From: an uncultured Rhodospirillaceae bacterium
GTDB taxonomy: Bacteria > Pseudomonadota > Alphaproteobacteria > Rhodospirillales > UBA2165
Reading direction: 5' to 3'
Assembly (NCBI GenBank): GCA_913020445.1
Contig: CAJWAR010000006.1
Location: 1-64,000 of the forward strand
Length of the DNA stretch: 64,000 bases
Below the pieces are notes generated by a model. That model saw only the letters and a program-made list of their open reading frames with translations, was not told where the DNA came from and did not search any database. This document shows, one piece after another, positions 25,112 to 27,746 of the stretch. The first letter of the stretch is position 1, and every line of letters starts with the position of its first letter. The position numbers were made by a program, and so were the translations under genes.

Positions 25112-25189
25112 CGGAGCGTGGCGCAGCCTGGTTAGCGCACCAAGCTGGGGGCTTGGGGGTCGGTGGTTCGAATCCACTCGCTCCGACCA
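25112..25189 (+). tRNA. tRNA-Pro (anticodon GGG)
   Basis: CGGAGCG/CGCTCCG acceptor stem, CCAAG-CTGGGGG-CTTGG anticodon arm, GGTTCGAATCC T-arm, encoded CCA. Confidence 0.96.
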
Positions 25190-25232: not shown

Positions 25233-25326
25233 GATTACAGTATGGATAAAGAGAAAATTTTTATTTGATTTACCTGTAATGCGTGTTCAAAATAAAGTTA
25301 ATGAAATTTACCTAAAGAAATTTAGT

Positions 25327-25953
25327 ATGCTCAATCCAGTAAAATCCTTTTTGGCCTTTATACTTGTAATGGGTCTCGGCAATATTACCATTACGCCCGC
25401 CATCTCTGCTGAACGCATCAACGTCGAATACCATCATAGTGAAGTCAGCTTTTCCGGCGACGATAGTTTTGTCACCGGTCGTTATACCTGGGAACCCCTG
25501 CCTGACAATAGATTATGGAAGGAAATGATCACCTTTGCGGGCGGGTCCATGATGTATTACGAGCTGCAGCCAGGTCATTTCTATACCGGATCAAATCAAG
25601 GTAAACATATTTTTGTCAGAATATTCAATCAGAACACGGGGTTCACAAAAAGAGGGCATTCGGTTGGTGAATCAGACGTCATTGAACTTTCCAATGGAAT
25701 CGGAAATTACTATATAGTTACGTCGTCAAATGATGATAATTCCTGCGGCTTGGCCAGACAATTTGCCGGAGAATCAGGTATCGGAGATGGCCTGCTGTCG
25801 AACGGTAGCACCAAAGTTGCGTCCTTATATGTTTGTAAGAGTAAATCCTGGGGTTCGAGATTTAAACTCACTAGGTTTATTCAGGATATTATGAACCGCG
25901 CGCGCTATGACGAGGGCAAGCTCAATAAAATGCGGGCGGCGGCAAGAAAGTAG
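25327..25953 (+). CDS. Hypothetical secreted/periplasmic protein
   Basis: Signal-peptide-like MLNPVKSFLAFILVMGLGNITITPAISA; no recognised family. Confidence 0.6.
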   Translation: MLNPVKSFLAFILVMGLGNITITPAISAERINVEYHHSEVSFSGDDSFVTGRYTWEPLPDNRLWKEMITFAGGSMMYYELQPGHFYTGSNQGKHIFVRIFNQNTGFTKRGHSVGESDVIELSNGIGNYYIVTSSNDDNSCGLARQFAGESGIGDGLLSNGSTKVASLYVCKSKSWGSRFKLTRFIQDIMNRARYDEGKLNKMRAAARK

Positions 25954-26027: not shown

Positions 26028-26363
26028 ATGAGCTCGACCGAAATCTGTAAACTGGATGACGTGCCGGACAATGATGCCAAAGGCATGGTGGCCGAAGTTG
26101 ACGGCAAGCAACGCAATATCTTCGTCGCCCGCAAAGGCGAGCAGGCCTTCGCCTATTTAAACTGGTGCCCCCATAATCAGGTACTGATTGATCAAATCCC
26201 CAACAAATTCTTCAATGCGGATTATAGCCTTATTCAATGCTCTAAACATGGCGCCTTGTTTCAGATCGAGGATGGCCTTTGTGTTGAAGGGCCGTGCGAA
26301 GGTGAGAGTTTGAAATCCCTAACAACGTCGGTCGAAAACGGCATGATTTGTCTGGTGGAATAA
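26028..26363 (+). CDS. Rieske-type [2Fe-2S] ferredoxin-like protein
   Basis: NWCPHNQ ... IQCSKHGALFQIEDGLCVEGPCEG. Confidence 0.88.
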   Translation: MSSTEICKLDDVPDNDAKGMVAEVDGKQRNIFVARKGEQAFAYLNWCPHNQVLIDQIPNKFFNADYSLIQCSKHGALFQIEDGLCVEGPCEGESLKSLTTSVENGMICLVE

Positions 26364-26365
26364 AT

Positions 26366-26848
26366 ATGGCGAGAAAACCCGGACAAATTAAGTATCTCAA
26401 GGCCGACGAACCGCTTAATCGGCCGCAAGCCATTGCCGGCGGCACCTTTGTCACCACCAATTTGCAGCGCACCCGTAAACTGCTCGAAGATTTCGCAGGT
26501 CTGGAATGTACTTTAGCCGGTGATGGCAAGCTACTGGTGCGGGATCAGGGGCCAAACGGCGACAAGCACTCCAAAGGCGCTGTTTACTGGGCGTTTGAAG
26601 TGTCCGAAGTTCCGGAAATCAAACATCCCCAGCACGTGCTTAATCATTGGGGCTTTGATCTGGCGACACCGGAAGAAGTTGACGCCGCCAACGCCGCAGC
26701 ACTTGAGATGGCCGAAGAGTACGGCATTGCTAAAGTTCAGAAATCCCGCGATATTCATGGTGTTTACGCCTTCTATTTTCAGGATTTCGACGAGAATTGG
26801 TGGGAATTTCAGTATCGCAAGCCGCGTCCCGGAGCATCAGACGAATGA
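26366..26848 (+). CDS. VOC (glyoxalase/extradiol dioxygenase fold) protein 1
   Basis: GGTFVTTNLQRTRKLLEDFAGLE...FYFQDFDENWWEFQYR. Confidence 0.8.
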   Translation: MARKPGQIKYLKADEPLNRPQAIAGGTFVTTNLQRTRKLLEDFAGLECTLAGDGKLLVRDQGPNGDKHSKGAVYWAFEVSEVPEIKHPQHVLNHWGFDLATPEEVDAANAAALEMAEEYGIAKVQKSRDIHGVYAFYFQDFDENWWEFQYRKPRPGASDE

Positions 26849-27279
26849 CCCCTAGCATCGTTAAGACAGATATATTATCGCACGGCACCTTGGATGTTCG
26901 AAACGCCGATGAATCGGCCAAATTTTACACCGAATTCTTAGGTCTTGAAGTGCGCCGCAACTCCTCAAGTTCGATGTGGATCATAAAAAAAATAGCCGAG
27001 CGCAAAGATTTATTCCTGGTCTGTGTCGGCGTTGGCGATAAACTCAAGCCGCAATCGAGAGACAATCGCTACATCTTGGATTTCGCCACCAAAGAAGAAA
27101 TTCATCGGGCGCACGAATTGGCGCAGAAATACCAGGAAACCTATAAAATATCCACTATTGAGCCGGTTCAAGAGGAGGAGGATCGATGTTCTCTGGTGCT
27201 CCAGGATCTCGACTTCAACTGGTGGGAATTTAAATATCAAGCTTGCGCTAAAATTGAGGCTGCCTTCAATCCCGCTTGA
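26845..27279 (+). CDS. VOC family protein 2
   Basis: LSHGTLDVRNADESAKFYTEFLGLEV...LVLQDLDFNWWEFKYQ; ATGA overlap with the upstream stop. Confidence 0.83.
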   Translation: MTPSIVKTDILSHGTLDVRNADESAKFYTEFLGLEVRRNSSSSMWIIKKIAERKDLFLVCVGVGDKLKPQSRDNRYILDFATKEEIHRAHELAQKYQETYKISTIEPVQEEEDRCSLVLQDLDFNWWEFKYQACAKIEAAFNPA

Positions 27280-27281
27280 TG

Positions 27282-27746
27282 CTATCCCCGACCGCGATAA
27301 CTTGGCACATTCTGGTCTGGAATCCATAATTTTTCTGGCGGCTCGCCGGTCTGATAAAAGACATCTATCGGCATGCCACCGCGCGGATACCAGTAGCCGC
27401 CAATTCTAAGCCAAACCGGCTTGATTTCATCAACAATCCGCCGGGCAATGGCGACTGTGCAATCTTCATGGAAGGCACCGTGATTGCGGAAAGACCCCAA
27501 ATAGAGCTTGAGTGACTTGCTTTCGACGATCTCGGCCGCGGGAACATAGTCTATCACCAAATGAGCAAAATCGGGCTGGCCGGTTACCGGGCAAAGTGAC
27601 GTGAATTCGGGACAGGTAAACCTGATCAAATAAAGCTCGTCACGCCGCGGATTGGCGACTTTCTCTAATTTCGCCTTTGCCGGGCTTTCCGGCAGGACAG
27701 AATGAGTGCCGAGTTGATCTAAATCATCGTAACCGGAAGATGTCAT
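27282..27746 (-). CDS. queF: NADPH-dependent 7-cyano-7-deazaguanine reductase
   Basis: [38 protein letters not shown]. Confidence 0.96.

Follow-up and report, generated by a model that had tools for sequence, protein, structure and literature searches.

A two-gene VOC pair with complementary metal-ligand loss, predicted to form a one-site heterodimer, in an uncultured Rhodospirillaceae bacterium

Layout and conservation of the locus

The window analyzed here, a 64,000-nucleotide stretch of DNA from an uncultured Rhodospirillaceae bacterium (genome G000), carries three plus-strand genes packed into positions 26028–27279. They encode a small Rieske protein and two proteins of the VOC superfamily, referred to as VOC1 and VOC2. 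There is a 2-nt gap between the Rieske gene and VOC1, and VOC1 and VOC2 share an ATGA overlap, confirming the tight spacing described in the first-pass annotation. The overlap suggests that the two VOC genes are translationally coupled. The features of the locus are as follows.

25112–25189, plus strand: tRNA-Pro (GGG), found with ARAGORN; conserved flank of the locus
26028–26363, plus strand: small Rieske [2Fe-2S] ferredoxin-like protein, 111 aa; PF00355, E 4e-9; CPH...CSKH
26366–26848, plus strand: VOC1, 160 aa; His-2 (H94), H131, Tyr134 and Glu147 of module 2 present; Gly25 at the His-1 position
26845–26848, plus strand: ATGA stop-start overlap of VOC1 and VOC2, also present in genome G002
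26845–27279, plus strand: VOC2, 144 aa; His-1 (LSHGT) and most conserved module 1 residues present; Arg at the His-2 position
27282–27746, minus strand: queF (preQ1 synthase); TIGR03139, E 6e-43; convergent conserved neighbor

The same tRNA-Pro adjoins the Rieske gene at four other loci (L032, L089, L093 and L097; ARAGORN), and queF forms the 3′ edge of the segment that differs between genomes by insertion or deletion of VOC1-VOC2. Between the tRNA and the Rieske gene lies a gene for a 224-aa protein (25279–25953, plus strand) that has no significant Pfam match and is missing from the corresponding place in G002, G005 and G012. This gene and the VOC pair together make the interval between tRNA-Pro and queF a variable part of the locus.

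Are the three genes real? A genome of the same genus, G002 (MAG JABIHH; SI053_bin63, Rhodospirillaceae), carries all of them, including the ATGA overlap, with amino acid identities of 84, 76 and 79% for the Rieske protein, VOC1 and VOC2, respectively. It is the only named relative with all three genes, and a scan of genome contigs returned just its own record. Between G000 and G002, synonymous sites of the three genes have reached or nearly reached saturation; protein identity that is nevertheless 76–84% indicates genuine genes maintained by purifying selection. Because of the saturation, a numeric dN/dS is not computable for VOC1 and VOC2.

The Rieske protein has the CxH + CxxH motif of Rieske ferredoxins and scores above the gathering threshold of PF00355. 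The small subunit of nitrite reductase, NirD, was rejected as its identity (TIGR02378, 33 bits against a cut-off of 74.65). VOC1 has zero matches to Pfam or NCBIfam families, and VOC2 matches only glyoxalase families PF18029 and PF00903 in Pfam, below threshold. The AF2 model of VOC1 has the superfamily fold of paired beta-alpha-beta-beta-beta modules and matches FosX and extradiol folds; VOC2 is placed in the superfamily by its sub-threshold Pfam matches and its homology to the C half of a modeled fused protein (see below). A phmmer comparison within a small sequence set links VOC1 to VOC2 (E about 1e-9), and each of them also matches numerous VOC proteins from the same bacterial family. These matches bear out the paralogy previously proposed for the two proteins. 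Both motif pairs quoted at that stage are present, FQDFDENWWEFQYR / LQDLDFNWWEFKYQ and LSHGTLDV / IAGGTFVT, the latter placing a candidate first metal ligand in VOC2 where VOC1 has Gly, as claimed.

Fused orthologues and complementary ligand loss

In two genomes from other genera of the family, the pair occurs as a single chain: G010 (L027 1952–2935, 327 aa) and G013 (L028 1–1161). VOC1 matches the N half of these fused proteins (50% identity in G010, 42% in G013), and VOC2 matches the C half. A tree of 41 domains has one branch that unites VOC1 and the N halves (100/98) and another that unites VOC2 and the C halves (99/93), although its long branches call for caution. This mirrored grouping implies that the duplication is older than the difference between the split and fused states. 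Judged by these sequence relationships, VOC1-VOC2 is a unit. No further pair, fused or split, turned up in searches of genomes from the order (317), the class (385) and the phylum (399). Viral contigs gave no match to the VOC pair, and a plasmid search returned three records (Cupriavidus, Salipiger) whose match span of ~410 bases corresponds to single-domain proteins rather than a pair. A single-domain VOC protein of G017, encoded between genes for a VanA-type Rieske oxygenase and an FAA-hydrolase (L029 1025–3481), has complete ligands and falls on the VOC1/N-half branch (93/80); it may be the closest unduplicated form.

The metal ligands are divided between the two proteins. All 26 single-domain relatives have the His/His/Glu set (H18, H75 and E128 in L025 numbering). 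In VOC1 and the N halves (4/4), His-1 is replaced by G, G, A or C while His-2 and Glu are kept; VOC2 and the C halves (4/4) keep His-1 and have Arg at His-2. The sets are therefore G/H/E in VOC1 and H/R/E in VOC2, and a complete 2-His-1-Glu set exists only when both are combined. It is the Arg of VOC2, missed in the first reading of the sequence, that makes the two losses complementary. A full ligand set in one chain or homodimer is a usual, though not universal, VOC trait, and neither VOC1 nor VOC2 has it.

The division extends beyond the ligands. Among the 26 single-domain proteins, 36 columns are each at least 95% conserved, with 15 in module 1 and 21 in module 2. VOC1 retains 4/15 of the module 1 columns and 13/21 of those in module 2; VOC2 retains 12/15 and 6/21, its module 2 being degenerate with the exception of the terminal Glu. 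Of the columns kept by just one of the two proteins, VOC1 has one in module 1 and seven in module 2, and VOC2 has nine and none ([[1,7],[9,0]], P = 4e-4 for G000). The corresponding values are 7e-4 for G002, 2e-4 for G010 and a non-significant 0.25 for G013; all of them serve as a guide only, since the tests assume independence between columns and the four pairs share ancestry. This relatedness also means that the ligand losses are not four independent events. Counting against a composite site, VOC2 still carries the Glu of the site presumed dead, and in G013 the N half also lacks the conserved His112 and the module test is not significant.

The opposite cross, in weaker form, is seen in another two-domain VOC protein of the family (G000:C59 and relatives), where the N domain keeps module 1 and the C domain keeps the His and Tyr of module 2. 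Such a pattern would be expected if, as a rule, tandem VOC proteins of this kind retain one of two composite sites. In six genomes this protein belongs to a cassette consisting of an SBP_bac_5 gene, the two-domain VOC gene (332–352 aa), a second SBP_bac_5 gene and two ABC permease genes (L031, which holds G000:C59, 548–6489; also L033–L037). The metal Glu of the C domain is Gln in the four aligned copies.

Predicted architecture and reaction

How could two incomplete ligand sets make an enzyme? FosA is 3D-domain-swapped, with Mn ligands His7, His67 and Glu113 and sites formed by both subunits (PMC10779102). If VOC1 and VOC2 pair as in FosA, His-1 of VOC2 meets His-2 and Glu of VOC1, giving one full site in the heterodimer and none in homodimers. 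If the domains are not swapped, no assembly of VOC1 and VOC2 contains a full site. Structure models support, without proving, the swapped arrangement. The AF2 model of the fused protein, built from six sequences, is of middling confidence (pLDDT 68, pTM 0.72); the VOC1 model has a pLDDT of 84. Over the whole chain, the fused model has TM scores of 0.47–0.55 to 1zsw, 3oaj, 4huz, maize glyoxalase I and GLOD4, versus 0.26–0.29 (rmsd about 20) to catechol-type extradiol enzymes. The VOC1 model agrees with FosX protomers (TMt 0.72, rmsd 3.7) but not with the closed HPCD domain (0.33, rmsd 12).

The explanation that we consider probable is that VOC1 and VOC2 are an obligate heterodimeric, swapped VOC metalloenzyme with one working 2-His-1-Glu site and one dead site. 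The obligate heteromeric enzyme first proposed for this locus is therefore well supported, given the fused orthologues, the mirrored trees, the complementary ligand loss and the swapped-type models. The ancestor would have been a single-domain homodimeric VOC protein whose duplication gave the VOC1/VOC2 pair, which would persist in the window as two overlapping genes and in related genera as a single fused one. As with FosA, glyoxalase I and PcpA-type dioxygenases, each chain would pack its module 1 against module 2 of its partner. The working site would consist of the His of VOC2 module 1 together with the His, the Glu, the conserved His131 and Tyr134 of VOC1 module 2; the mirror site, from VOC1 module 1 and VOC2 module 2, would be dead. 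The swapped arrangement is predicted from models, and we infer heterodimer formation, metal binding and activity.

There are several known systems with which the pair can be compared. First, PcpA-type 2,6-dichlorohydroquinone 1,2-dioxygenase (4huz) and the related putative dioxygenase 3oaj are tandem VOC proteins with a whole-chain arrangement similar to that of the fused model. They are single chains with 10–12% identity in the fold alignment, whereas the enzyme in the window is split over two genes. PcpA-type enzymes have one site formed by both domains. In PcpA, the His comes from the N domain and the His/Glu from the C domain; the set kept in the VOC pair is the reciprocal one, with His from C and His/Glu from N. 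Second, maize glyoxalase I (5d7z) has a TM score of 0.54 to the fused model. Plant glyoxalase I differs from VOC1-VOC2 in being fused, in its reaction and in its ligand set, which in glyoxalase I includes a second Glu. Monomeric plant glyoxalase I, such as the maize enzyme and rice OsGLYI-11.2, carries its VOC domains in tandem and has a functional site alongside a cryptic one (PMC5412262). Third, FosA and FosX are single-domain proteins like VOC1 and VOC2, and FosA shares a 2-His-1-Glu site across subunits (PMC10779102), but they form homodimers with two sites, whereas VOC1-VOC2 is predicted to be a heterodimer with one. Fourth, type I extradiol dioxygenases (BphC, HpaD/HPCD, C23O) belong to the same superfamily and have the same 2-His-1-Glu ligand set, but their site lies within one domain, whereas that of VOC1-VOC2 is predicted to span two. 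The BphC/C23O architecture was rejected on the whole-chain TM scores of 0.26–0.29 and on the ligands not being in one domain, and assignment to curated type I extradiol families was rejected because the best matches are far below cut-offs.

If active, the pair would most likely cleave a compound resembling a hydroquinone or catechol, with Fe(II)/Mn(II) as the metal. In G010, an SBP_bac_5 gene stands before the fused gene, which shares 4 nt with an FAA-hydrolase gene; a Rieske-type oxygenase gene comes next. FAA-hydrolase genes lie near VOC relatives in seven of ~39 loci examined, and Rieske oxygenase genes in several. The 4.2-Mb G000 genome has 15 FAA-hydrolase genes, from which chance proximity within 5 kb would be roughly a few per cent. 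In the window, no catabolic genes flank the VOC pair. These FAA-hydrolase and Rieske oxygenase neighbors suggest the breakdown of an aromatic or similar compound, for which the VOC pair is a possible ring-cleaving step, making extradiol-type activity plausible.

It is possible, but rather unlikely, that the composite site serves chemistry other than ring cleavage, with the pair acting as a glyoxalase-, epimerase- or FosX-like hydrolase or thiol transferase. This alternative is a variant of the preferred heterodimer and overlaps with it in probability. VOC superfamily chemistry is diverse, and FosX is the nearest fold to the VOC1 model among single-domain structures. Set against this are the FAA-hydrolase and Rieske oxygenase genes that adjoin the fused form and several single-domain relatives, as well as the best curated-family score of a single-domain relative, which is to HpaD, though far below cut-off. 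We regard it as improbable that VOC1 and VOC2 are unswapped pseudo-enzymes that bind no metal and act as binding or carrier proteins. While neither chain has a complete 2-His-1-Glu set and VOC1 is unrecognized by Pfam, the ligands retained in all four pairs make up exactly one complementary set, further module 2 residues are retained in VOC1 and lost from VOC2, and the models are of the swapped type.

The Rieske neighbor and the meaning of the pair

Does the Rieske protein belong to the enzyme? The Rieske protein has matches in 35 of 41 related genomes searched, a count that takes in more distant paralogues. The closest orthologue (59–87% identical) lies at the same locus, defined by tRNA-Pro, queF, ispDF, dus or whatever part of these each contig covers, with no VOC gene in G005, G006, G012, G015 and G016. 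In G006 (87% identical) and G005, the Rieske stop codon is 3–4 nt from that of queF, so that the genes abut directly. A tree of ten neighbor genes places G000, G002 and G006 in a near trichotomy. Together with the VOC-free loci, this means that the VOC1-VOC2 block was either gained between the Rieske gene and queF or cleanly lost from G006. Whichever occurred, the triad is not obligate, which for the Rieske part is the outcome that the first-pass annotation had itself named as refuting. The fused pair of G010 has no small Rieske ferredoxin nearby; the G013 contig ends just upstream. Several relatives also have another Rieske paralogue, less closely related, in the vicinity of gpsA/tsaD-like or acyl-CoA-synthetase-like genes (L104, L105, L101 and L106; gene names assigned by eye from sequence).

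The Rieske gene is thus an older resident of the locus and probably lies outside the VOC enzyme; it would be a neighbor in the same apparent transcription unit rather than a required partner. An obligate Rieske-VOC-VOC triad was rejected on synteny, as most relatives, at least five of them, have the Rieske gene at this locus without VOC genes, and the proposal in the first-pass annotation that the Rieske protein supplies electrons to the VOC enzyme is unsupported. An obligate system in which the Rieske protein feeds a heteromeric VOC dioxygenase is very unlikely: the genes are tightly coupled in G000 and G002, but the VOC-free orthologues and the G010 fusion argue against it, and extradiol-type VOC enzymes turn over without external electrons.

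What are the implications of the VOC pair? Fused VOC proteins with one site and homodimeric swapped VOC proteins are known, and to our knowledge there is no two-gene heterodimer of this kind; a literature search found no heterodimeric VOC enzyme. The balance tips modestly toward VOC1-VOC2 being such a case, an obligate heterodimer encoded by two genes, with a single composite site, each subunit lacking the half-site that its partner supplies and the same pair being naturally fused elsewhere. First, VOC1-VOC2 would be a natural example of the change from a symmetric homodimeric enzyme to an asymmetric heterodimer with one site. Second, the fused state and unchanged single-domain relatives can be compared within the same bacterial family. 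Third, annotation that relies on complete metal motifs in one chain would wrongly label both VOC1 and VOC2 as inactive.
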